DNA of 64,000 nt from Faecalibacterium sp. I4-1-79 (lineage in GTDB: Bacteria > Bacillota > Clostridia > Oscillospirales > Ruminococcaceae): NCBI RefSeq assembly GCF_023347235.1, contig NZ_CP094467.1:1054001-1118000 (forward strand), in the 5' to 3' direction. Numbering within the stretch: position 1 is the stretch's first letter; each line of letters begins with the position of its first letter. Positions 12,885 through 54,865 of the stretch are shown in pieces. The position numbers and the translations under genes were made by a program. Under the pieces are notes generated by a model. The model did no database searches. It had not been told where the DNA came from and saw only the letters and a list, made by a program, of their open reading frames with translations.

Positions 12885-12937
12885 GTTCGCGTTTATCAAG
12901 GTGAACATTTAAGTATTAAAAACGGGAGTGAAAACAA

Positions 12938-13429
12938 ATGATGACCATTGCACAGATCATGGAAAAGATGATCGCCTTTTCCGAAGGGAATATCCATGAC
13001 ATCACGCACCTGAGCTGCGTGTGGACCTATGCCAAAACCATTGGTGAGCTGGAGGGGCTGGACGCAGACACGCAGTTTATTCTGGAGGTGGCGGCCATCA
13101 CCCACGATATCGCCTGCCCGCTCTGTCGCAAAAAGTACGGCAACACCAATGGTAAATATCAGGAGCAGGAGGGTGCCCCGCTGGTGCGGGAGTTCTTGGC
13201 GGATACTGGCATGACAGCAGAACAGATCGACCGGGTGGCCTATCTGGTAGGGCACCACCATAGTCCGGCGCAGATCGACGGCATTGACTATCAGATTCTG
13301 ATTGAGGCAGATTATATCGTCAATGCGTCCGAAAGCGGGTACGACCAGCAGGCAATCCGAACCTTTATGGAACATACGATGAAGACGGCAGCAGGTATCC
13401 GGCTGACGAAAACAGTGTTTGGAGTGTAA
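12938..13429 (+). CDS. HD domain phosphohydrolase
   Basis: 163 residues. Residues about 16-120 form an HD domain: NIHDITHLSCVWTYA (first His), EVAAITHDIACP (the HD pair), and VGHHHSPAQIDGIDYQILIEADYIVN with the later His and Asp. It probably hydrolyses a nucleotide or another phosphate ester with a divalent metal. It is followed two bases later by a Nudix gene, so both are likely one operon devoted to nucleotide clean-up (inference). Start is ATG 12938 or 12941. Confidence 0.85.
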   Translation: MMTIAQIMEKMIAFSEGNIHDITHLSCVWTYAKTIGELEGLDADTQFILEVAAITHDIACPLCRKKYGNTNGKYQEQEGAPLVREFLADTGMTAEQIDRVAYLVGHHHSPAQIDGIDYQILIEADYIVNASESGYDQQAIRTFMEHTMKTAAGIRLTKTVFGV

Positions 13430-13431
13430 AA

Positions 13432-13944
13432 ATGATTCAGAAGCATTGCTTTGAATGCGGTACGGCATTGATTGAAAAAGAACTGGAAGAAGAGGGCATT
13501 GTGCCTTATTGCCCGAAATGCCAGCAATACCGGTTCCCGATGTACAATGTGGCAGTCAGCATGATTGTTGTGGATGAGGAAACCGGGAAAATTCTGCTCA
13601 TCCAGCAGTACGGCAAGCCCTCTTATATTCTGGTGGCCGGGTATGTGAACCGCGGTGAGGCAGAAGAACACGCTGTGGTGCGGGAAGTCCGGGAAGAAAC
13701 CGGGTTGGAAGTAAAGCACCTCCGGTTCAACCGTACCAAGTTTTTTGAGCCGTCTAACACGCTGATGTGCAACTTTACGGCTTTCGTCAGAACCGCAAAG
13801 GCGCTGCATATCAACCACGAAGTGGACCGCTGCAAGTGGTTCACCCCGCAGGAAGCCAGAGAAAACATCCGTCCCAACAGCCTTGCAGCGGAATTTTTGA
13901 ATGCGTATCTGGACGAAGTGGGGAATAAGCCGATGGAGATGTGA
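13432..13944 (+). CDS. Nudix hydrolase with N-terminal zinc ribbon
   Basis: 170 residues. An N-terminal zinc ribbon (CFECG...CPKCQQYRFP) is followed by a Nudix fold at about 38-165. The Nudix box begins GYVNRGEAEEHAVVREV and ends REETGL, matching GX5EX7REUXEEXGU. The layout resembles NudC-type NADH/ADP-ribose pyrophosphatases, but it is shorter and the substrate is not clear. It is translated right behind the HD gene. Confidence 0.88.
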   Translation: MIQKHCFECGTALIEKELEEEGIVPYCPKCQQYRFPMYNVAVSMIVVDEETGKILLIQQYGKPSYILVAGYVNRGEAEEHAVVREVREETGLEVKHLRFNRTKFFEPSNTLMCNFTAFVRTAKALHINHEVDRCKWFTPQEARENIRPNSLAAEFLNAYLDEVGNKPMEM

Positions 13945-14040
13945 TTCGTGGCTGTACCACGGGAATTTTGACGGAAAGTATGGAAAAAAGTTGGTTCGGC
14001 CTGTTTCGGTTGACCTTTTTATAAAGAATCGATATATTGA

Positions 14041-14052
14041 TACTATATAGTA
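14041..14052. promoter_or_regulatory. Palindrome before the Fic gene
   Basis: The perfect 12-base palindrome TACTATATAGTA lies 31 bases before the Fic ATG; a second half GTATC follows at 14059. It is probably a repressor site in the promoter. Confidence 0.45.
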
Positions 14053-14082
14053 TTAATAAGTATCAACTGCGAGGTGGACAGA

Positions 14083-15276
14083 ATGGATGGGGCACAGTTT
14101 GCCAAAATGCTTTCAGATAAGCATTTGTTTGAACTCAATCGGATGGAATACAAGTACTCGACTGTCAGTGTCAAAGAATTTGCCGAATTGCTGCGGCAAA
14201 ACTTTGCGCAGCCTCTGCCGTTGACTGATTTTTCTGGAAATAAGCTGTTTTACCTGCCGAACCTCGCGCAAATTTCAACAAATGGTATGAAGCAGTTGCT
14301 CTCTGTCCCTGTCAGTGGACAAAACTTCGGTTTGTCGGCGATGACCGAGGAAATTTATGCTACTTTTCAAATTGAAAGTATCCGCTCGACCCGCAGCAGT
14401 ATCCGTTATATCCTCGATGGTTATGCCCCTCGTGATGAACAAGAAGCTCGCATCTATGGTATGAAGCGCGGACTGGAGTTTATCGCGAATCGTCAGAATA
14501 CGATCACCGAGGAGAATCTGCATCACCTGTATCAGATCAGCACAGGGGATTATCTCCCGGATGAAGATCGATTACTGCCAAACCACTTTTATCGGCATGG
14601 CGAGGTTTTTATTGTGGGCGGTGAAGAACCCAGACCGGGACTTCCGGCAGAGCGGCTTCCCGGTGCCATGAAATGTCTTGTCGATTTTGCGAATGCCAAT
14701 GACGGCATCAATGAGCTGCATAAGGCTGCCATTCTGCACTTTGCCTTTGCGTACTACCACCCCTATTTTGACGGGAATGGACGCACTGCACGGCTATTCC
14801 ACCTCTGGTATCTTGTTCAGCAGGGCTATCCTGCGGCACTATTCACGCCGTTTTCCCGATACATCGCTGAAAACAAGGACGCATATTACAAAGCCTACAA
14901 ACGCGTGGAGAGAAATGCTCTGATTTCCGGCTATACGGATGTGACTCCCTTTCTGTTCTACTTCTGCAATGAGGTCTATAACCGCCTGCAGGTGGATGCA
15001 GTCCCGCCGAAAACTGATCTTGAGGTATATCAAACTGCTCTTGCGGAAGGAAAAATCACAGAAAAAGAACGGCTGCTCTGGGAGTATGTTCTGTCTGCTT
15101 ATGGTGCAGAGGAGTTTACCACAAAGCAGCTGGAAAAGGATTTCCGAAACGCTGCGTATGCAACCATTCGGACGTTTGTGATGAAATTCCATGAGATGGG
15201 GCTGCTTACTGCAAGAAAAGCAGGAAACAGGGTGTTCTATCATGTCGGTGGGACTTCTGACGGTCGGCCATTATAA
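14083..15276 (+). CDS. Fic domain protein (AMP-transferase family), class II
   Basis: 397 residues. The catalytic loop HPYFDGNGRTARLF lies at about residue 226-239, with all active residues present (His, Asp, Arg). An inhibitory-helix-like TFQIES sits about 90 N-terminal to it, close to the (S/T)xxxE(G/N) pattern, marking a self-inhibited class II Fic. The C-terminal 80 residues look like a winged helix (TKQLEKDFRNAAYATIRTF). Fic enzymes transfer AMP or other groups onto proteins. ATG 14083 fits GAGGTGG better than GTG 14074. It may be a toxin-like or stress regulator; the target is unknown. Confidence 0.88.
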   Translation: MDGAQFAKMLSDKHLFELNRMEYKYSTVSVKEFAELLRQNFAQPLPLTDFSGNKLFYLPNLAQISTNGMKQLLSVPVSGQNFGLSAMTEEIYATFQIESIRSTRSSIRYILDGYAPRDEQEARIYGMKRGLEFIANRQNTITEENLHHLYQISTGDYLPDEDRLLPNHFYRHGEVFIVGGEEPRPGLPAERLPGAMKCLVDFANANDGINELHKAAILHFAFAYYHPYFDGNGRTARLFHLWYLVQQGYPAALFTPFSRYIAENKDAYYKAYKRVERNALISGYTDVTPFLFYFCNEVYNRLQVDAVPPKTDLEVYQTALAEGKITEKERLLWEYVLSAYGAEEFTTKQLEKDFRNAAYATIRTFVMKFHEMGLLTARKAGNRVFYHVGGTSDGRPL

Positions 15277-15297
15277 TGAATCCAAAAGGAGAACGTT

Positions 15298-15753
15298 ATG
15301 AAAACGATTCGTGTTGTGGCCGCTGTGATCTGCGACTCCATGCAGGCAAAACGCAAAATCTACGCCACTGCCCGTGGTTATGGCGACTACAAAGGCCAGT
15401 GGGAGTTTCCGGGCGGCAAAATCGAGCCGGGCGAAACCCCGCAGCAGGCTCTGAAGCGGGAAATCGAAGAAGAACTGGACACGGAAATTGCTGTGGGGGA
15501 TTTAATTGGTACACTCGAGTACGATTATCCGACGTTTCATCTTTCCATGGACTGCTTCTGGTGTGAAGTGGTTTCCGGCGAGCTTGTGCTGAAAGAAGCG
15601 GAAGCTGCGCGGTGGCTGACGAAGGAGGAGTTTGATTCCGTTCCGTGGCTCCCGGCGGATCAGACCATTTTGGATGTTATCAGAAGCTCAATGCAGCCAG
15701 TGAAACCACTCCATACCAGCGAATATGACAAAGAACCTCTGCAGAGATGCTGA
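15298..15753 (+). CDS. MutT-type Nudix hydrolase (8-oxo-dGTP diphosphatase-like)
   Basis: 151 residues. WEFPGGKIEPGETPQQAL followed by KREIEEELD is a full MutT Nudix box, and the N-terminal VVAAVICD and GQWEFPGGK match MutT. It likely removes oxidised dGTP from the nucleotide pool. The last 20 residues go beyond typical MutT (about 130). A TCCAAAAGGAGAACG site places ATG at 15298. Confidence 0.9.
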   Translation: MKTIRVVAAVICDSMQAKRKIYATARGYGDYKGQWEFPGGKIEPGETPQQALKREIEEELDTEIAVGDLIGTLEYDYPTFHLSMDCFWCEVVSGELVLKEAEAARWLTKEEFDSVPWLPADQTILDVIRSSMQPVKPLHTSEYDKEPLQRC

Positions 15754-22127: not shown

Positions 22128-22157
22128 TTGAAATGACAGTGTGGGGGGAGGTATAAT
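22128..22157 (+). promoter_or_regulatory. Promoter of soluble hybrid kinase
   Basis: TTGAAA (22128-22133), 18-base spacer, perfect TATAAT (22152-22157). Confidence 0.7.
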
Positions 22158-22244
22158 ATAAAATATTGCAGTGTGCCTTGTGAGATACAACGGAAGCGCT
22201 GGAATGGAAGGAAACAGCGGAATCAAAACCCTACGAGGATGAAA

Positions 22245-25200
22245 ATGAAATTCGATAGAAGACTTACAGATGAAATCTACACTTCCGATACGGTAAGGCT
22301 GGGAAAAAATGCATTTCAGGCCATGCAGGAGACGCTCTATCATAATGGCGGTGTCGGAACCATTACCGGGTACTATGATGCCGAATTGTCGATCCTGTCG
22401 GTCAGTAATCTGTTGCTGCATAATCTGAACCACAGCTATGCATCCCTGATGGAGCAGACAAAGGGTTCGCTGAAGAATCTTTTCTATAAGAGAGATGCCG
22501 CATTCCTCGACAATGCGCGCTTTCGTCAGATTCAGGGCGAAGGGGAAGGCCGGATCCTCACGGCAGATGGCTCTCCCGTCTATGTGCGTCTCTACAAAAA
22601 AGATGCAGTCGATACGGATGGAACACCGATCTGGATCATGTCAGTACAGATGAACTGGGCGTATGAGAACCTTGCGCTGGTCAATGAATCCATCCATTCT
22701 GCACTATGGTATTTTGAGTGTAATGAAAACGGTGAGATCGTTCATGTAAACTGGAGCCATGCGTTCCGGCAGATCCTTGGATATCATGACATTCTGGATT
22801 TTCCGAACAAACTGGATTCATGGTCGAATCTCCTGCACCCGGAGGACTATGACCGGGTAATGCAGCTGCTTTTGGAAACGATTGCGGACAAAACCAATAC
22901 TACAAAATATAATGTTGAGTACCGACTGAAAATGCAGGATGGCCAATACCACTGGTTCCGGGCATCGGCGGAGGTGATACGCCGTCTGGATGGCTCGGCC
23001 AATCGAATTGCCGGAATCATCAGCAACATTGACGCGGAAAAAAGAAGCCGGATGCAGGCGCAGCGGGCAGCGGCATTTCACCGTGCATTTACCAGCGCAA
23101 ACCTCTGTGAATACTATGTAAATCTGGAAAAGAATACCTTTGATACTTTCAAAGTGGAGCCTTCTTTGATGACGGCCTTTGAGCAGAACCACACATGGGA
23201 TGGATTGGTCAGATTCCTTGTGGATAACTATGTGGTGGAAGAGGACAAAAAGTCTGTAACGAATTTCTATAATCGCGCCTACATCACGGAAAAATTAAAG
23301 GGGCTTGAGACGGAGCTGCGTCAGGAGTGCCGCATCGTTCTGAATGGAGAGGAACGATGGGTCAGCAACGTGGTCATGCGCGGCGAGATCGAAGATTCCG
23401 AATATGCGATGATTTTTCTGCGGGACATCACAGAGTCCAAAGCAGAGACGGCACGGCGGATGCAGATGGCCTCAGATAACGCATCGATGGATCTTTTGAT
23501 CAAGAGTATGGTGCATCTGCTGGACCGCTTTGTCGTCTGCGATCTGGAGAATGACCGGTATCGGTTCTATAATCTGCAAGGTGAAATGATATACGCGCCG
23601 ACGGGAACCTACCATGATTTTGTGGAGCAGGTGGTTGCAAAGTATAAGACACTGGAACCGCTGGACGCATTGGCTGCTTTGATTTCACCGGAAAATATCC
23701 GCAAGAATTTGCAGGATGAGAACGACATCTACAAATTTGAATACTGCTCCATAGATGAGAACACCTATAAGATCGCTTCCTTCATTCCGCTGGAGTGGGA
23801 TGGCACAAAGCTGGTCAAAGCACTGTTGGCATCTATGGATGTGTCACAGGAGAAAAAGGCCGAGATTGAATCCCATAAGGCACTGAAGGATGCGTACCGG
23901 GCGGCGGAAAACGCAAGCCGCGCCAAGACGGAATTCCTCTCCAATATGTCCCATGATATCCGTACACCGATGAATGCAATCGTTGGCTTGACCGCCATTG
24001 CGGGTGCGAATATCGAGAGTCAGGACAGGGTGGTCGAGTGCCTTGGCAAGATCACAAAGTCGAGCCGTCATCTGTTGGGACTGATCAATGAAGTGCTGGA
24101 TATGGCCAGAATCGAGAGCGGGCGAATGAGCCTTGCCGAGGAGGATTTCAGCCTGCCGGAGCTGGTCGATAACCTGCTCACCCTCACAAAACCGGCAATC
24201 GACGAGCACCACCATCAGCTCGAAGTCCATATTGAGCACATTGAGCACGAAGCTGTCTGCGGCGACAGCCTGCGCATCCAGCAGATCTTTGTGAACCTGA
24301 TGAGCAACGCCGTCAAGTACACCCCGGATGGAGGAAACATCACCCTTACGATCAAGGAAAAACCGAACGGCTTCTCGGAGCTTGGCTGCTACGAGTTTTC
24401 CATCGAGGACAACGGCATCGGTATGACGCCGGAATTCCAGAAGATCATGTTCGAGCCGTTCAGCCGGGCAGACGACCACCGGACGACCAAGGTGCAGGGC
24501 ACCGGTCTTGGCATGGCCATTGCAAGAAACATCGTTAACCTGATGAATGGTGACATTCAGGTCGAAAGCGCTCCCAACAAGGGAACGAAGATCACGGTCA
24601 CGGTCTATCTGAAGCTTCAGGAGAACGAGAAGGAACAGGAAAAAGAACTGCTCGATCTGCCGGTACTGGTCGTGGACGATGACAAGACCTGCTGCGAAAG
24701 CACCGTTGCAACCCTTCAGGAGATCGGCATAGCGGGCGAATGGGTTCTGACCGGCAAGGAAGCCGTGGAACGTTGCGCGGCGCGGCACAAGACCGGCCGC
24801 GACTATTTTGCGGTGATCCTGGACTGGAAAATGCCGGCAATGGACGGCATCGCAACGGCCAGAAGGATTCGGGAATGCGTCGGGGAGGACGTCACGATCA
24901 TCATCCTGACTTCCTTTGATTTCAGCGAGATCGAAGAAGAAGCCAGAGCAGTGGGCGTGAATGCGTTTATGGCAAAACCGCTGTTCCGCTCCCGTCTGAC
25001 GGCAACTCTGCGGCAGTTTACATCCGGGAAGAAGGAGAAAAACGCCCGGAACTATCTGGAAGACTTTGCGAAGGAAAACTATGCGGGTAAGCGGATTCTT
25101 CTTGTGGAAGATAACGAGCTGAACCGTGAGATCGCAACCGAGATCATAGGCATGACGGGCGTGACCATTGACATTGCCGAAAACGGAAAAATTGCAGTCG

Positions 25201-25457
25201 AAAAGGTGATGGAAGCACCAGAAAAGTGGTACGATCTCATTTTTATGGACATCCAGATGCCCATCATGAATGGTTACGAAGCCACCGCTGCGATCCGTGC
25301 GCTTACCGGCAGCCGGGGCAAAGTGCCCATCATTGCCATGACGGCAAATGCCTTTGCCGAGGACGTACAGCTGGCAAAGAACACCGGCATGAACGAGCAT
25401 ATCGCCAAACCGCTTGATTTGAATAAGCTGAATGATGTGCTGAAACAGTGGCTGTGA
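22245..25457 (+). CDS. Soluble PAS-containing hybrid histidine kinase with two receiver domains
   Basis: 1070 residues, no membrane segment. A PAS-type sensor at about 140-265 (LGYHDILDFPNKL...WFRASAEVIRR) is followed by less clear PAS-like units to about 540. His[16 protein letters not shown] with His about 570. HATPase: NLMSNAVKYTPDGG, DNGIGM and [10 protein letters not shown]. Receiver 1 (LVVDDD, LDWKMPAMDG) and receiver 2 (LLVEDN, MDIQMPIMNG) follow; there is no HPt. It must sense a cytoplasmic cue and pass phosphate through a relay. ATG 22245 follows ACGAGG; longer starts (22173) run into the leader. No response regulator lies next to it. Confidence 0.9.
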   Translation: MKFDRRLTDEIYTSDTVRLGKNAFQAMQETLYHNGGVGTITGYYDAELSILSVSNLLLHNLNHSYASLMEQTKGSLKNLFYKRDAAFLDNARFRQIQGEGEGRILTADGSPVYVRLYKKDAVDTDGTPIWIMSVQMNWAYENLALVNESIHSALWYFECNENGEIVHVNWSHAFRQILGYHDILDFPNKLDSWSNLLHPEDYDRVMQLLLETIADKTNTTKYNVEYRLKMQDGQYHWFRASAEVIRRLDGSANRIAGIISNIDAEKRSRMQAQRAAAFHRAFTSANLCEYYVNLEKNTFDTFKVEPSLMTAFEQNHTWDGLVRFLVDNYVVEEDKKSVTNFYNRAYITEKLKGLETELRQECRIVLNGEERWVSNVVMRGEIEDSEYAMIFLRDITESKAETARRMQMASDNASMDLLIKSMVHLLDRFVVCDLENDRYRFYNLQGEMIYAPTGTYHDFVEQVVAKYKTLEPLDALAALISPENIRKNLQDENDIYKFEYCSIDENTYKIASFIPLEWDGTKLVKALLASMDVSQEKKAEIESHKALKDAYRAAENASRAKTEFLSNMSHDIRTPMNAIVGLTAIAGANIESQDRVVECLGKITKSSRHLLGLINEVLDMARIESGRMSLAEEDFSLPELVDNLLTLTKPAIDEHHHQLEVHIEHIEHEAVCGDSLRIQQIFVNLMSNAVKYTPDGGNITLTIKEKPNGFSELGCYEFSIEDNGIGMTPEFQKIMFEPFSRADDHRTTKVQGTGLGMAIARNIVNLMNGDIQVESAPNKGTKITVTVYLKLQENEKEQEKELLDLPVLVVDDDKTCCESTVATLQEIGIAGEWVLTGKEAVERCAARHKTGRDYFAVILDWKMPAMDGIATARRIRECVGEDVTIIILTSFDFSEIEEEARAVGVNAFMAKPLFRSRLTATLRQFTSGKKEKNARNYLEDFAKENYAGKRILLVEDNELNREIATEIIGMTGVTIDIAENGKIAVEKVMEAPEKWYDLIFMDIQMPIMNGYEATAAIRALTGSRGKVPIIAMTANAFAEDVQLAKNTGMNEHIAKPLDLNKLNDVLKQWL

Positions 25458-40310: not shown

Positions 40311-42179
40311 TTGACGAACAAAAGAACACTGCACCGCCTTGTTTCCATGCTTGCGGCACTGGTGATGGCGGTCTGTCTGCTGACCGGCTGCGGCACAAAA
40401 AGCCCAGAAGAGGTGGAAAAGCAGGAGGACGCCCAGACCATTCAGGTGTATCTGTGGAGCAATAGCCTGTACGAGACCTATGCACCTTATGTCCAGTCCC
40501 AGCTGCCGGATGTGAACATTGAGTTCATCGTGGGCAACAACGATTTGGATTTTTACAAGTTTTTGCAGCAGAACGGCGGTCTGCCGGATATCATCACCTG
40601 CTGCCGGTTCTCGCTGCACGACGCTGCACCCCTGAAGGACAGCCTGATGAACCTTGCCATGACCAACGAGGCGGGCGCTGTGTACAACACCTACCTCAAC
40701 AGCTTTAAAAACGAGGACGGCAGCGTGAACTGGCTGCCGGTCTGCGCCGATGCCCACGGCTTTGTGGTCAACCGCAGCCTTTTTGAGCAGTACGATATCC
40801 CGCTGCCCACCGATTATGCAAGCTTTGTTTCCGCCTGTCAGGCGTTTGAAGCGCTGGGCATCCGCGGCTTTACCGCCGACTATACCTATGATTACACCTG
40901 CATGGAGACCCTGCAGGGGCTTTCCGCTGCCGAGCTTACCACGACGGAAGGGCGCAAGTGGCGCACCGCTTACAGCGACCCCGCCAGCACCGCGCGGGTG
41001 GGTCTGGACGATGCCGTGTGGCCGGGCGCCTTTGAGCGGATGGCGCAGTTCATTCAGGATACCCACCTTACGGCGGACGACCTTGCGTTGAATTACGACG
41101 GTGTGACCGGGATGTTCCGCAACGGGAAAGTTGCCATGTATTTTGGCAGCTCTGCCGGCGTGAAGATGTTTCAGGATGTGGGCATCGACACCATTTTTAT
41201 GCCCTTCTTCAGCCAGAACGGCGAAAAGTGGATCATGACCACCCCGTATTTCCAAGTTGCCCTGAACCGAGATCTCGAGCAGGACACCGCGCGCCGCGAA
41301 AAAGCCATGAAGGTGCTGAACGTCATGCTCTCGGAGGATGCGCAGAACCGCATCGTTGCCGACGGGCAGGACGTGCTGAGCTACAGCCAGAACGTCCCCC
41401 TGCGCCTGACCGAGTACATGAAGGATGTGCGCGATGTGGTGGAAGAAAACCACATGTATATCCGTATTGCCTCCAACGATTTCTTTGCTGTCTCTAAGGA
41501 TGTTGTCTCCAAAATGATCGCGGGCGAGTACACGGCAAAACAGGCGTATCAGGCGTTCAATGCAAAGCTTCTTGCCGAAGAAGAACCTGCTGCGGACGAG
41601 ACCGTGTTGACCAGCGGGCAGAGCTATTCCAACGTGTTCCACGCAAACGGCGGTAACGCTGCCTTCTCGGTTATGGCAAACACGCTGCGCGGCGTTTACG
41701 GCACGGATGTGCTGCTTGCCACCGCAAACAGCTTTACCGGCAGTGTGCTGAAGGCAGACTATACCCCAAAAATGGCGGATTCCATGATCATGCCCAACGG
41801 CCTGATGTCCCGCCAGCGCACCATGACCGGCGCAGAGCTGAAGGAAACTGTCCGCGCCTTTGTGGAAGGCTGCGAGGGCGGCTTTGTGCCCTTCAATCGT
41901 GGTTCTCTGCCGATCGTCAGCGGCATTGCCGTGGAGGTAAAGGAGGCAAGCGGCAGCTATACCCTGACCGGTATCACCCGCAACGGGCAGCCGCTGCGGG
42001 ACGACGACACCGTTACCGTGACCTGCCTTGCAGCGGAAAAGCAGATGGAAGCCATGCTTGCCAGCGGAAGCGGCGTATCTGCGGGCGAAGATACATGGGT
42101 GAAAAACACATGGCGCGATCATGTTTCCGGCGGCGGCGCAGCGCTTGCAGAGCCTGAAAACTACATGACACTGAGGTGA
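40311..42179 (+). CDS. Solute-binding lipoprotein fused to 5'-nucleotidase C-terminal-like domain
   Basis: 622 residues from TTG 40311 (GTGAGG upstream). The signal [15 protein letters not shown] is a lipobox with Cys about residue 27. Residues about 40-420 look like an ABC-type solute-binding protein ([40 protein letters not shown]). Residues about 450-610 resemble the 5'-nucleotidase C-terminal domain: [34 protein letters not shown] and [14 protein letters not shown]. The enzyme core metallophosphatase is absent, so it probably only binds a ligand such as a nucleotide. It overlaps translationally with the kinase downstream; no permease or ATPase is present. Confidence 0.75.
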
Positions 42180-42184
42180 GCGGA

Positions 42185-45133
42185 ATGGCAGACGAAAAGC
42201 GTAAACCAAAACGGAGCTGCCATCCCCGGCAAAAGTGGCTCCCTGCTGCTGCCGCTATCCTTCTGCTGGTCTTACTGGCAGTCGGGCTCAGCGTGCGGTA
42301 CATCTCGTTTGTGTCGCAGACCATCTATCAGGAAAGCACCTCGCATCTGGAAGAAGTGCTGCATAAATCCAACAATATGCTAAAAGAGATGGTGCGCAAA
42401 AATGTGACCTATCTGCATCTGTACAACGGCTTTTTGGAAAACACCTCGAATGAGGACGAAATTCAGGCGTATATCAAGCAAGCACAGAAGAATACCGGAT
42501 TTGCCGACTTTTACTTTCTTACCTATGACGGCAACTACATCACCGTGACCGGGGAGACCGGCTATCTTGGTCTGCAGACCAATCTGGACGAAAAGCTCGC
42601 CCATGATGAGGATGTCGTTGTGAACACGGCACTGCCCGGCAGACCCCAGATGCTTGCGTTCATCTGTCCCGAAACGCAGGGCAGCTACCGGGGCTTTGCC
42701 TACGATGCCATTGCCATCTCTTATTATAATGATGCGGTGCTGAGATTGCTGGACAACTCTGCCTTTAAGGGCAATGCCAGCAACTATGTCATCTACCCGG
42801 ACGGGCGGGTGGTCATCGACAACTCCGTAAACCGCAAGGAGACCATTTACAACTTTATTGCAATGCTGCGCAGCTATTCCGATCTTTCCGAGGAACAGAT
42901 CACGGAGCTGTCCAATGCCTTTGCGCAGGGCAGCAGCGGAAACCTGAGGGTCAAACTGGGCGACACCAGCTATTATCTGGTCTACGAGGGCGCAGCTGTC
43001 CAGAACTGGACGATGGTGGGGCTTGTGCCGGTCAGCATTGTCAATGCTAATCTGGACGAACTATGGTTCCATACGGCGCAGATCGTGGCGGGCATCGTTG
43101 CAGGTCTTGCGCTGCTGGTCATTCTGCTCATCGTGCGCAGAAGCCATACAACCCTGCGCCGGAAGAATACCGAGATCTCGTACCGGGACGAGCTGTTCCA
43201 GAAGCTTTCGCTGAACGTGGACGATGTTTTCCTGATGCTGGATGCAGAGACTTCCAAGGTGGATTACGTCAGCCCGAATATTGAGCGGCTGCTGGGAATC
43301 CCGTGGAGAGAAGTCCGGCAGGATGCCCGTGTTCTGGCAGCGCTGCACCCGAAGGATGACCCGGACCGCGACAAGAACTTTCTGGAGGGACTTCTCAGCG
43401 GGGAACAGCGCGAGTGGGATACGGAGTATGAGCATCGGGAGACCAAGGAGCGCCGCTGGTTCCATAACATCGCTATGGGCAGCGAGGTGGAGGGCAGAGC
43501 CAAGTATATCCTTGTTATGTCCGACCGCACCGCCGACAAGCAGGTAAATCAGGCGCTTTCCGACGCCGTTGCAGCCGCCGAGACCGCCAACCGCGCCAAG
43601 AGCACCTTCCTTTCCAATATGTCCCACGATATCCGCACCCCCATGAACGCCATCATCGGCTTTACCACGCTGGCGATTAGCAATATCAACGATACCGAGC
43701 GGGTAAAGGATTATCTTGGCAAGACCCTTGCATCCAGCAACCATCTGCTTTCCCTCATCAACGATGTGCTGGATATGAGCCGCATTGAAAGTGGAAAGAT
43801 CCATCTGGAAGAGGTGGAGGTCAACCTTTCGGATGTGCTGCACGATTTGAAAACCATTGTCAGCGGGCAAATTTACGCAAAGCAGCTGGAGCTTTACATG
43901 GACGTTATGGACGTGACCGACGAGGACGTCTACTGCGACAAGACCCGGCTGAACCAGATTTTGCTGAACCTGCTGTCCAACGCCATCAAGTTTACCCCGG
44001 CGGGCGGCACAGTCTCGGTGCGGGTGCGGCAGCTTGCCGGTAAGGTGCATGGCTGCGGGCAGTACGAGTTCCGCATCAAGGATAACGGCATCGGCATGAG
44101 TCCGGAGTTTGCCAAAAAGATCTTTGAGCCCTTCGAGCGGGAGCGCACCTCCACGGTAAGCCGCATCCAAGGCACCGGCCTTGGCATGGCCATTACCAAA
44201 AACATCGTGGATATGATGGGCGGCACCATCGAGGTGCAGACAGCGCAGGGCAAGGGCACCGAGTTTACCGTCTGCGTGCCCATGCGCGCACAGACCGAGC
44301 AGCGCCCGGTGGAAAAAATCACCGAGCTGGAGGGCCTGAAAGCACTGGTGGTGGATGACGACTTCAACACCTGCGACAGCGTGACAAAGATGCTGGTCAA
44401 GGTGGGTATGCGCGCCGAGTGGACCCTTTCCGGCAAGGAAGCGGTGCTGCGTGCGCGGCAGTCTATCGAGATGAGCGATGCCTACCACGCCTATATCATC
44501 GACTGGCGCCTGCCGGATATGAACGGCATCGAGGTCACCCGCCGCATCCGCAGCCTGAACGACGATACGCCCATTATCATCCTGACCGCCTACGACTGGT
44601 CGGATATCGAGGTGGAGGCAAAGGCAGCCGGCGTGACCGCCTTCTGCGCCAAGCCTATGTTCATGTCCGACCTGCGCGAGACCCTGATGAGCGCACTCGG
44701 CCAGAAACAGACGGATGCGGCGCAGGGGCTTCTGCCGGATAAGAACGCCGACTTCAAGGGCAAGCACATTCTGCTGGTGGAGGACAATGAGCTGAACCGT
44801 GAGATCGCGCAGGAGATTCTGCGGGAGTACGGCTTCCTTGTTGATTCGGCAGAAAACGGCGCAGTAGCGGTGGAAAAGGTAAGCACCGCCGCGCCGGGCA
44901 GCTACGATCTGGTGCTGATGGACGTGCAGATGCCGATCATGGATGGCTATACCGCCACCCGTCAGATCCGCGCGCTGGACGACCCTGCGCGGGCAAAGCT
45001 GCCAATCCTTGCCATGACCGCTAACGCCTTTGACGAGGACCGCCGCAACGCGCTGGAAAGCGGCATGAACGGCTTTTTGTCCAAGCCCATCGTGATCGGC
45101 GACCTTGTGCAGGAGCTGCACAAAATTTTGTGA
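42185..45133 (+). CDS. Membrane hybrid histidine kinase with two receiver domains
   Basis: 982 residues. TM1 about 20-40 ([17 protein letters not shown]), an extracellular Cache-like sensor about 45-290 ([12 protein letters not shown]), TM2 about 300-320, PAS about 340-430 (LLGIPWREV), HisKA with [15 protein letters not shown] (His about 481), HATPase with [11 protein letters not shown] and GTGLGMAIT, receiver 1 ([16 protein letters not shown]), receiver 2 ([16 protein letters not shown]). It starts 5 bases after the lipoprotein stop. It probably reads ligand binding by the lipoprotein outside and passes phosphate to an HPt or regulator elsewhere. ATG 42185 preferred to GTG 42176. Confidence 0.92.
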
Positions 45134-51837: not shown

Positions 51838-52668
51838 ATGAAAAAATACAGAAGAGGACTGCGGCGGGCAGCCTGTCTGCTGGCACTGGCAATGTGCGCG
51901 GCGCTGCTTTGCGGCTGCACCGGAAAAGCCGACAGCTATACGGCTGCAATGCCGGTCATCGTGGTGGGCAGCGATAACTACCCGCCCTTCAACTATATGA
52001 GTACGGACGGTACGCCCACCGGCATTGACGTAGAACTGGCCACCGAGGCGTTCAGGCGGCTGGGCTGCCGGGCAAAATTTGTGACCATCGACTGGGAAAA
52101 GAAGAAGGAACTGGTGGAAAACGACACCATCGACTGCATCTGGGGCAGTTTTACCATGGACGGCCGCGAGGAAGAATACCAATGGGCAGGGCCTTATCTG
52201 TACAGCCGTCAGGTGGTGGCAGTGCGCTCCGACAGCGACATCTATACCCTGCAGGATCTGGCCGGCAAGGTAGTGGCGGTGCAGTCCACCACAAAGCCGG
52301 AGGAGCTGTTTTTGAACGCAGAGCAGAACGGACTGCCCCGGCTGCGCAGACTATATTCGTTGCAGAACCGGGACCTGATCTACACCACCCTGATCAAGGG
52401 CTATGCGGATGCCCTGGCCACCCACGAAAGCGCCATCCGGCAGTTCATGAAGGATTACAGCGTAGAATATCGCATTCTGGACGAGCCGCTGATGACGGCG
52501 CGGCTGGGCGTGGCTTTTTCCAAAAATCGCAGCGATGACCTGCCGCAGCAGCTGACGGAGGTGTTTCAGGAGATGCTGGCGGACGGCACCGTCCGGCAGA
52601 TCGTGAGCCGCTATCTGGACGACCCCGAGCACTATCTGGATGGACTGGAGGACAGCACCCATGCATGA
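51838..52668 (+). CDS. SBP_bac_3 type (amino acid family) solute-binding lipoprotein
   Basis: 276 residues. Signal with lipobox LALAMCAALLCGCTG (Cys about residue 27). IVVGSDNYPPFNYMSTDG and GIDVELATEAFRRLGC are family 3 motifs; GSFTMDGREEEY, LAGKVVAVQSTTK and GYADALATHESAI follow. Such proteins bind amino acids. No permease or ATPase gene is near; its stop overlaps the start of a kinase gene by eight bases, so it is probably the ligand sensor of that kinase. Confidence 0.9.
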   Translation: MKKYRRGLRRAACLLALAMCAALLCGCTGKADSYTAAMPVIVVGSDNYPPFNYMSTDGTPTGIDVELATEAFRRLGCRAKFVTIDWEKKKELVENDTIDCIWGSFTMDGREEEYQWAGPYLYSRQVVAVRSDSDIYTLQDLAGKVVAVQSTTKPEELFLNAEQNGLPRLRRLYSLQNRDLIYTTLIKGYADALATHESAIRQFMKDYSVEYRILDEPLMTARLGVAFSKNRSDDLPQQLTEVFQEMLADGTVRQIVSRYLDDPEHYLDGLEDSTHA

Positions 52669-54865
52669 CGGAATGGAAAAAGGAACACCGGTCATCAGCC
52701 GGAAGCAGTACATTCTGGTGTGTGCACTTGCGGGACTGTTGCTGCTGGGCGGCGTGCTGGGGCTTTCGGCACACAGTGATCTGCAAAATGCTGAAAAGCA
52801 GTTTGAGGATACCATCAGCTATGTTAAGGAGCAGTGCACCGACTACGATAACCTGAACCTTGCCACGGAGACCAAAAGCCTGATGCGGATGATGGAAAAC
52901 GCCCAGCATCTGTGCAGTGAGATCGCTCGGGACCAGCAGGAAAACCACGGGCGGGTGCTGGACGATGCCGCCATGGAAGAATATTTGCAGGACTATACCC
53001 TCAGCGGCATCCTTGTGCTTTCGGCAGAGGGCAAAATATTGTGCGGTGCCTCACAGGATGGCCGGGTGGCTGACCCGCAGGTCCGGGAACAGATGGAAAA
53101 GGAGCTGGCCGGTTCTATCGTGCTGAAGGTGGCCGACCACCCGGAGCAGGTCTACGCCGGGCGGACGGAAAAGGAGGATAGCTCCTATGTAGATACCGCA
53201 GCCTGCGCCCGGAAGGACGGGGACGGGGTGCTTGTGGTGTACTACCGCACCACGGCAGAATATGTGCGCAATTACAGTCTTTCCTACCAAAACTGCGTGC
53301 AGGGCTATAACCCCGCTGTGGACGGAACCATCGTGGTGACCCGTGGTGACCGCATCGTGGCCAGCAACGATACCGCCCTGCTGGATACCACCGTGGACGA
53401 AAACCCCACCCTTTCTGCCCTAAAGGCGCGCAGCACCGATGGCGGTGTGATCCATGTGCACAGCACCACCGGGCAGCAGTACGCCTACGGCATCGTAGGG
53501 CAGGGACGCAGTTTTTATATCTATGTTTACCGCCCGGAGCAGGAGGTATATGTCTCTACCATGCGCAATGTGAGCATGGCTGCCTTTGCTTACATGGTCG
53601 TTCTGTTCCTGCTGCAGTTGCTGCGCGGCAAGACCGACCAGCGCTACCGGGAACAGCAGCTGCGCCGGGAGCAGGAGTACCAAAAGACCCTCAAGGCAGC
53701 CGCACTGAAAGCGGAGAGCGCAAACCTTGCCAAGACCGAGTTTTTGCAGCGCATGAGCCACGATATCCGCACTCCCATCAACGGCATCCGGGGCATGGTG
53801 GAGATCGGCGACCGCTGCCCGGAGGATATGGCACGGCAGGCCGACTGCCGCAAAAAGATCTGGGAGGCCTCCACCCTGCTGCTGGAGCTGGTGAACGAGG
53901 TGCTGGACATGGGCAAGCTGGAGTCCGGCGAGGTGGTGCTGGAAAACGTGCCCTTTGATCTGCCCGAGCTGATGAACGAGATCACGGACGTGCTGGAAAA
54001 ACAGGCGGCAGAACGCGGAATCGTTCTGCACCGGGAATACGGCAGGCTGCCGCATCCACGGCTGGTGGGCAGCCCGCTGCACGTCAAGCGGCTGCTGATG
54101 AATGTGCTCAGCAATGCCATCAAGTATAACCGGGAAAAGGGGCGTGTGATGCTGGACTGCTTTGAATTGAGCAGCAACGGGGACAAGGCGCAGATCTGTT
54201 TTGTCTGCGCGGACACTGGCATCGGCATGAGCGAGGAGTTCCAGAAGCGGATGTTCGAACCCTTTGCACAGGAGAATGCCGGGGCACGCTCGGTATACGG
54301 CGGCACCGGCCTTGGCACGTCCATTGCCAAAAGTCTTGTGGATAAGATGGGCGGTACCATCGGGGTGGAAAGCAAGCAGGGCGTGGGCACAACCTACACC
54401 ATCACCCTGCCTTTTGCCATCGACAATACTGCAACGGAAGAGCCGGAGTGGCAGCAGACAGACCTTACCGTGCTGCAGGGACGGCGGATGCTGCTGGCCG
54501 AGGACAATGCCCTGAACATGGAGATCATGGAATTTTTGCTGAACGATGTGGGTGTAAAAGTGACCAAAGCCGCCGACGGACAGCAGGCAGTGGAAGCCTT
54601 TGCGGCCTCGCCGGTGGGCGGCTTTGACGCCATTCTGATGGACGTGATGATGCCGGTGCGGGACGGCCACGAGGCTACCCGCGCCATCCGCGCCATGGAC
54701 CGCCCGGACGCAAAGACCATCCCCATCTTTGCCATGACGGCAAACGCCTTTACAGAGGACCGCCGTAAAGCGCTGGAATCCGGCATGAATGAGCACCTGC
54801 CTAAGCCAATTGATCCGGATGCCCTGTACCGCCTGCTGGTAAAATACCTGACAGAGCGCAACTGA
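52661..54865 (+). CDS. Membrane hybrid histidine kinase with one receiver domain
   Basis: 734 residues. TM1 about 17-38 ([19 protein letters not shown]), extracellular sensor about 40-300 (VSIx-like Cache fold: [20 protein letters not shown]), TM2 about 305-322 ([15 protein letters not shown]), coiled linker, His[16 protein letters not shown] (His about 367), HATPase with [11 protein letters not shown] and GTGLGTSIA, receiver [11 protein letters not shown] with DVMMPVRDG Asp about 660. ATG 52661 follows CTGGAGGA. Sister in design to the kinase at 42185, but with one receiver and a different lipoprotein. Confidence 0.92.

Follow-up and report, generated by a model that had tools for sequence, protein, structure and literature searches.

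A solute-binding lipoprotein with a nucleotidase-type C-terminal domain and its hybrid kinase neighbour: a probable transport-free sensor pair in Faecalibacterium

The stretch of DNA that we have analysed (the window) comprises 64,000 nucleotides of Faecalibacterium sp. I4-1-79 (contig NZ_CP094467.1, positions 1,054,001 to 1,118,000; the 3.23 Mb genome is a single contig), and it contains side by side the genes of a solute-binding lipoprotein and of a hybrid histidine kinase (Table 1). We consider it probable, with some reservation, that the two proteins form a transport-free sensor that depends on its binding protein, in which a solute-binding protein (SBP) of oligosaccharide-type origin carries a re-tooled version of the domain found at the C-terminus of 5'-nucleotidases (5NT_C). 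What was computed here is the domain content, the fold, the pairing of the two genes, the absence of permeases, the loss of the nucleotide pocket and a tree in which all the fusions fall on one side of a single branch.

Table 1. Features of the lipoprotein-kinase pair (window positions).
Feature	Position	Strand	Basis
Gene of the SBP-5NT_C lipoprotein (622 aa; TTG start; range includes the stop)	40311..42179	+	relatives conserved full length
Signal peptide of the lipoprotein, with lipobox LTGC (Cys27)	40311..40391	+	by eye
SBP domain (family 1/8), approximately residues 44-421	40440..41573	+	Pfam SBP_bac_8/SBP_bac_1; AlphaFold2 model
5NT_C-fold domain, residues 436-622	41616..42176	+	hhalign, Foldseek, Pfam in relatives, residue table
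Hybrid histidine kinase, 982 aa, HisKA-HATPase-REC-REC	42185..45133	+	Pfam
Outer domain of the kinase, dCache_1-like (residues 46-279), flanked by two membrane helices identified by eye	42320..43021	+	
HisKA and HATPase_c	43595..44287	+	Pfam
First receiver domain	~44337-44693	+	by eye
Second receiver domain	44768..45118	+	Response_reg, 2 stretches in kinase

The lipoprotein gene begins with the TTG at 40311 and its stop codon ends at 42179, exactly five bases before the kinase ATG at 42185, as the original prediction (made by a model from the DNA letters) had stated. The Gly26-Cys27 of the lipobox are invariant in 14/14 aligned homologues. The family 1-like binding domain, also foreseen, is matched by Pfam (SBP_bac_8, 2.4e-10; SBP_bac_1, 3.6e-9), and the best PDB match to an AlphaFold2 model of the full protein is 3quf (E 3.8e-21). 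The roughly 190 residues that follow are without a Pfam match in the window protein. No metallophosphatase family (PF00149) is listed in the Pfam scans of the window protein, its aligned homologues or its relatives; the protein lacks, as had been claimed, the catalytic domain that defines a 5'-nucleotidase enzyme.

We assign the 5NT_C fold to this C-terminal domain because profile-profile comparison, the predicted fold and the Pfam matches of its relatives all agree, though scans of the single protein fail. In the window protein there is no PF02872 match at E<=10, let alone one above the curated cut-off, and the NCBIfam scan is likewise silent on 5NT_C. Among the 14 proteins of alignment A1 (homologues 32-92% identical to that of the window), four match PF02872 (best 1.1e-11). 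In scans of individual proteins L006 scores 1.1e-11, L007 5.8e-5 and L008 4.6e-4 (L numbers denote loci), and more distant SBP fusions match it at 3.6e-33 (L014), 1.1e-29 (L058) and 7.5e-38 (L202). The curated cut-off is exceeded by L006, L007, L014, L021, L051, L058 and L202, but not by L002, L008, L012 and L052. Comparing the A2 profile, which represents the window's subfamily, by hhalign with that of six nucleotidases (A3; same genome and order, picked by a PF02872 or A2 match, with the metallophosphatase half judged by eye) gave E 3.6e-13 with a probability of 97.9, the match spanning 117 columns, and comparing it with the profile of four fusions that retain an intact nucleotide pocket (A4) gave a probability of 95.3 and E 2.1e-8. 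All seven control comparisons failed (the domain against either SBP half or the kinase outer part, the SBP halves against A3, and the outer part against A3 and A4; probability 0.0-0.9, E 0.06-0.84).

AlphaFold2 models, built without templates from 14-row alignments, reached a pLDDT of 84.9 for the whole lipoprotein and 86.9 for the C-terminal domain, which was modelled alone because a Foldseek search with the whole protein listed SBPs, mostly maltose-binding-protein fusions. For the isolated domain, the best 50 of 266 PDB matches all belong to the 5'-nucleotidase superfamily (E between 1.6e-10 and 2.5e-5; TM-scores, taken over the query, of 0.47-0.70); these include the YunD complex, NadN, SoxB, UshA, the Thermus 5'-nucleotidase and CD73, of which we take SoxB and YunD to be superfamily members. 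The sole point against the assignment is a weak sequence-profile search of the PDB, in which the best nucleotidase (E 0.31) ranked below two uncharacterized 160-aa chains, 5t11 (0.14) and 5t10 (0.18). A nucleotidase-like C-terminal domain that had been seen by eye is thus recovered by hhalign, by 50/50 of these listed Foldseek rows and by PF02872 in relatives, and the absence of any such fold, which the original prediction had named as the outcome that would overturn it, was not what structure prediction and profile comparison returned.

With respect to gene neighbourhood, the SBP-5NT_C fusions behave very differently from SBPs that lack the extra domain. Counting neighbours within 2.5 kb on the same strand, with all frames scanned, a hybrid kinase lies beside 41 of the 45 fusion frames (37 of them having it directly downstream with a gap of <700 bases) and a permease beside none (0/45); in the same searches, 40 SBP-only frames have a hybrid kinase beside them in seven cases and a permease, found with the same profile, in 25. 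Fisher tests give p values of 3e-12 for the kinase and 2e-11 for the permease; these refer to the full counts including broken-gene pieces, and when the pieces are subtracted by arithmetic the counts become 40/43 and 0/43 for the fusions and 6/38 and 25/38 for the SBP-only frames. The pieces concerned are those of L040 and L084, whose C-terminal parts were counted as fusions and N-terminal parts as SBP-only. Loci L082, L083 and L085 were left out as copies of L035, L038 and L039. Of 40 regions fetched, 36 yielded 37 SBP-only frames in total, three (L202-L204) proved to be fusions and L200 had no match at the threshold; L184 supplied the 38th SBP-only frame, and the SBP-only set is a part of all such matches found.

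The kinase pairing persists as the identity of the relatives falls from 92% to about 15%, in the manner of a three-component system in which an SBP gene is paired with a sensor kinase gene, and the linked permease that marks the SBP of an ATP-binding cassette (ABC) importer is missing. The lipoprotein has the look of a dedicated receptor because the relatives examined mostly adjoin a sensor kinase and none of them adjoins an importer. Moreover, the claim that no transporter genes accompany the pair holds for ABC permeases, since PF00528 is absent from the window (30 matches genome-wide, the nearest about 147 kb away), and a permease linked to the lipoprotein elsewhere, a possibility the original prediction had itself raised against its case, was looked for and not found beside any fusion frame. 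Gene order varies somewhat: at L176 two fusion genes follow the kinase, at L204 it lies upstream, and at L081, where one permease is found about 6 kb off in the wider stretch, a second fusion gene intervenes. Two SBP-5NT_C genes each are present in L074 (6635-17771), L175, L176, L081 and L179, and several hybrid kinases at L074 and L175.

The divergence of the two proteins was compared in 36 lipoprotein-kinase pairs. Among 271 close comparisons, the Spearman correlation between the distances of the SBP part and those of the kinase outer domain is 0.75, compared with 0.54 between the outer domain and its own core. With the kinase core held constant, the SBP and 5NT_C parts correlate with the outer domain at 0.63 and 0.46, and with the other lipoprotein part held constant at 0.56 versus 0.30.

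Several observations weigh against the receptor interpretation. When all pairs of the 36 loci are considered the advantage of the SBP part is gone (0.50 for SBP and outer domain, 0.48 for outer domain and core, 0.58 for SBP and core); in the close pairs the 5NT_C part tracks the kinase core (0.68) no less well than the outer domain (0.65); and the distance pairs are non-independent, so that these correlations carry no p-value. The support that co-divergence of the sequences could lend to an SBP-kinase contact is therefore mixed. All the neighbourhood tallies include near-copies, and four fusion frames have no nearby kinase (L073, the broken L084 and two on L179, where the contig stops). The kinase profile was built from the HisKA core of the window's kinase, and three of the four transport-linked sister loci (L184, L186 and L205) have a kinase of the PF06580 type, which this profile does not count; in consequence the kinase contrast holds for hybrid kinases, while the permease contrast is unaffected. 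Nor is a kinase neighbour unique to the fusions, an idea that we had to reject: six intact SBP-only proteins (L188, L196, L198, L201, L214 and L206) lie directly beside HisKA hybrid kinases with no permease near, the kinase being upstream in five of the six. They make up a second type of SBP-kinase pair that lacks 5NT_C, and the domain is consequently not required for the pairing.

To place the fusions among other SBPs, we have built a quick-search maximum-likelihood tree from 81 proteins, using their SBP part but not 5NT_C; both pieces of L040 and both of L084, four frames in all, were omitted. The 43 fusions all lie on one side of a single branch (Shimodaira-Hasegawa-like approximate likelihood ratio test, SH-aLRT, 97); within them, the ten pocket-intact fusions form one group (SH-aLRT 100) and the other 33 another (86). 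These values must be read in a tree with long branches, with 21 of its 78 inner branches open and with outsiders chosen by similarity. The nearest outsiders are the SBP-only L184, L186, L189, L205 and L206, of which four have permeases and L206 a kinase; three of the four permease-bearing loci adjoin glycoside hydrolase genes (GH65, GH16 or GH31). The simplest course of events would be a single fusion in an oligosaccharide-type SBP and a switch of partner from permease to kinase, followed by loss of the pocket in one branch. For the first domain, the SBP type together with the hydrolase genes at the transport-linked sister loci points to a carbohydrate ligand.

The nucleotide pocket was scored from one alignment of the 45 fusion frames and six nucleotidases at six UshA positions: R379, R410, N431 and D504, which we take to be nucleotide-site residues, and F429 and F498, where any aromatic counted as kept. 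In UshA the base is stacked between Phe429 and Phe498, as described in PMC7922932. According to PMC10454023, the substrate is first bound at the 5NT_C domain, a large domain rotation then follows, and the name 5NT_C carries no implication of activity. By counting along the A4-UshA alignment, R16, R47, Y66, N68 and Y147 correspond to R379, R410, F429, N431 and F498; the D504 match rests on a GDGF motif and is less certain, the UshA-A4 alignment not placing it so.

All six positions are kept in ten of the 45 fusions (L067, L068, L069, L070, L180, L181, L182, L183, L185 and L202), for which nucleotide sensing is plausible on these residues. The window protein keeps none of the six (it has A445, T476, N496, L498 and A575, and no counterpart of D504) and so does not qualify as a nucleotide-binding 5NT_C domain; among the remaining 34 fusions some retain one or two. 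This loss should be read with the caveat that only three of the six control nucleotidases (L041, L055 and L062) keep all six, L057 having five, L044 four and L043 two. In the window protein and 14 close relatives, T476, N496 and L498 replace R410, F429 and N431 in 15/15, against 40 invariant columns of 191 in this set, which was picked after the pocket table had been seen. A neighbourhood test on the pocket yields p 0.076, so a rebuilt pocket is a hint only; fixation of these three residues would fit a new site.

As we picture it, the lipoprotein, anchored outside the membrane, would bind a solute, probably an oligosaccharide, through its SBP half and contact the Cache-like outer domain of the kinase, altering its activity, whereupon phosphate would pass through the receiver domains of the kinase to a separate HPt protein. 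Binding to the kinase, the type of ligand and the phosphorelay are the steps that we infer. The 5NT_C domain, nucleotide-binding by origin, would have been joined to an ABC-type SBP in Clostridia, probably once, and would have accompanied the switch from import to signalling; the group that keeps the pocket may be a two-input receptor for sugar and nucleotide, whereas in the window's group, where the pocket seems to have been rebuilt, the domain may bind another ligand or act as a docking piece. The fuller scenario, in which this single recruitment itself converted an SBP for imported sugar into a receptor, the intact members respond to two inputs and the window's branch has been re-tooled for some other gut molecule, we regard as unlikely in its entirety.

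The original prediction went further and proposed that the pair senses nucleotides or nucleosides outside the cell. Its nucleotidase-type domain and permease-free sensor pair both stand, and the homology of this domain to the substrate-binding half of nucleotidases, together with the ten fusions that keep R379, R410, N431, D504 and both aromatics, lends the idea some weight; but with none of the six pocket positions left in the window protein, the three substitutions fixed in all 14 close relatives compared and nothing opposite D504, nucleotide sensing by this particular pair is improbable. A different possibility, which we take seriously although we would not bet on it, is that 5NT_C is purely a docking or stiffening module that fits the SBP to the Cache domain or blocks permease docking, and that it has no small-molecule ligand in the window protein. 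The domain is tightly linked with the absence of permeases, its pocket is incomplete in 35 of the 45 fusions and it is the least conserved of the four parts (median identity over the 271 close pairs 0.28, compared with 0.39 for the SBP, 0.35 for the kinase outer part and 0.50 for the core). However, the fixed residues 476, 496 and 498 hint at a new site, and it is the SBP part rather than 5NT_C that better tracks the kinase outer domain in close pairs.

It could also be argued that the lipoprotein serves an ABC importer encoded elsewhere and that its kinase neighbour is incidental, considering that the SBP domain is of transport type and that permease genes are plentiful in the genome. In view of the complete lack of permeases beside the fusions, where the same profile readily finds them beside SBP-only frames, and of a kinase pairing that survives such extensive divergence, this seems very improbable indeed.

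In the sensor pair that we favour, the lipoprotein would engage the outer part of the kinase. There, dCache_1 (PF02743) matches the window's kinase at E 0.0013 and 18.7 bits, below the Pfam cut-off of 45 bits, and 13 of 15 kinase N-terminal stretches match at E<=0.1 (best 9.8e-10). Besides HisKA, HATPase_c and the receivers, Pfam lists a weak PAS match, and the top NCBIfam match is TorS, far under its cut-off (339 of 676 bits). The genome has a single PF01627 HPt match, a free 115-aa protein (G000:C1:2712050-2712247; L227 6012-6359) beside which no regulator gene was seen by eye, and output of the kinase is probably via such a separate HPt protein. At least four hybrid kinases share the genome with it. 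Two of them, besides the one discussed here, lie in the window at 22137-25454 and 52607-54862; no SBP of the lipoprotein's kind was detected beside either. In other Faecalibacterium (L033, L034, L039 and L040) an additional 890-aa hybrid kinase is convergent to the pair (about 12930-15610, minus strand); neither the window nor L032 showed it adjoining the pair.

Upstream of the pair, the window encodes a cyclase, a protein with a tRNA-editing domain, a CitMHS transporter and a Mem_trans carrier. A promoter scan was at chance level (3 found, 2.4 expected). Terminator-like sites were above it (11, with 5.9 expected and a standard deviation of 2.6), one of them, at 45105-45123, spanning the end of the kinase gene.

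The fusion family was seen mainly in Clostridia. In our genome surveys three or four candidates per genome were scored (E<=1e-20), and the counts are lower bounds because so few were. Full-length matches (>=590 of the 614 positions of a broad profile, A5) occur in at least 11 of 391 Clostridia genomes, which led us to reject the idea that the fusion is confined to Faecalibacterium; within that genus the fusion is patchy (2/5 sampled genomes). In a phylum sample of 299 genomes the only full-length match, among the candidates scored, was in the window's own genome. This genome also encodes a second, distant SBP lipoprotein (L066 4907-9209; G000:C1:2234000-2252000), a 655-aa frame with a twin-arginine-translocation-like signal and a degenerate 5NT_C domain (PF02872, 0.025), followed by its own hybrid kinase. 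A lipoprotein-kinase pair that is 75% identical turned up under the title uncultured Collinsella, the name of an actinobacterium, in a metagenome bin (L036, contig CANRSF010000005.1), implying either a mislabelled contig or a transfer between phyla. In Faecalibacterium longum CLA-AA-H243 (L040 7911-9867) the lipoprotein gene is broken up into two frames, whose products are 92% and 91% identical, and the kinase frame is open.

Binding proteins serve as co-receptors of sensor kinases in LuxP-LuxQ, TorT-TorS and XylFII-LytS; to our knowledge, these are SBPs of other families and have no 5NT_C domain. The nucleotidases UshA, CpdB and CD73 (PF00149 plus PF02872) have the C-terminal fold in common with the window lipoprotein, and ten of the 45 fusions have their pocket residues as well, but in the window protein an SBP takes the place of the metallophosphatase and the pocket is lost. 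The closest parallel is CuaD-CuaS-CuaR, the cellobiose sensor of Ruminiclostridium cellulolyticum, in which, according to the sections of PMC10384115 that describe it, a family 1-type lipoprotein SBP, whose gene shares an operon with that of a sensor kinase, makes direct contact with the outer part of that kinase and tunes the kinase to the sugar. By analogy with the role of CuaD towards CuaS, we propose that the window lipoprotein most likely acts as a ligand-binding co-receptor of the kinase encoded next to it. The two systems differ in several respects: mature CuaD is 410 aa long, no second domain being mentioned in those sections, whereas our lipoprotein has 5NT_C; CuaS is of the classical type, has HAMP and is helical in its outer part, and our kinase is hybrid and Cache-like; the regulator CuaR is a helix-turn-helix protein, and our pair has no adjoining regulator gene; and an importer operon (cuaABC-cbpA) adjoins the CuaD system, in contrast to the lack of a nearby permease here. 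In the open-licence PMC literature we found no description of the SBP-5NT_C architecture or of an SBP combined with a hybrid kinase and Cache. If the present interpretation is correct, the 5NT_C domain could mark which of the annotated "extracellular solute-binding proteins" of gut Clostridia are receptors rather than parts of importers, and the pocket-intact group would be candidate sensors of extracellular nucleotides or NAD. Kinases driven by SBPs are thus familiar from these systems, and what the pair described here would add to them, within that literature, is a class of receptors recognizable by its borrowed nucleotidase domain.

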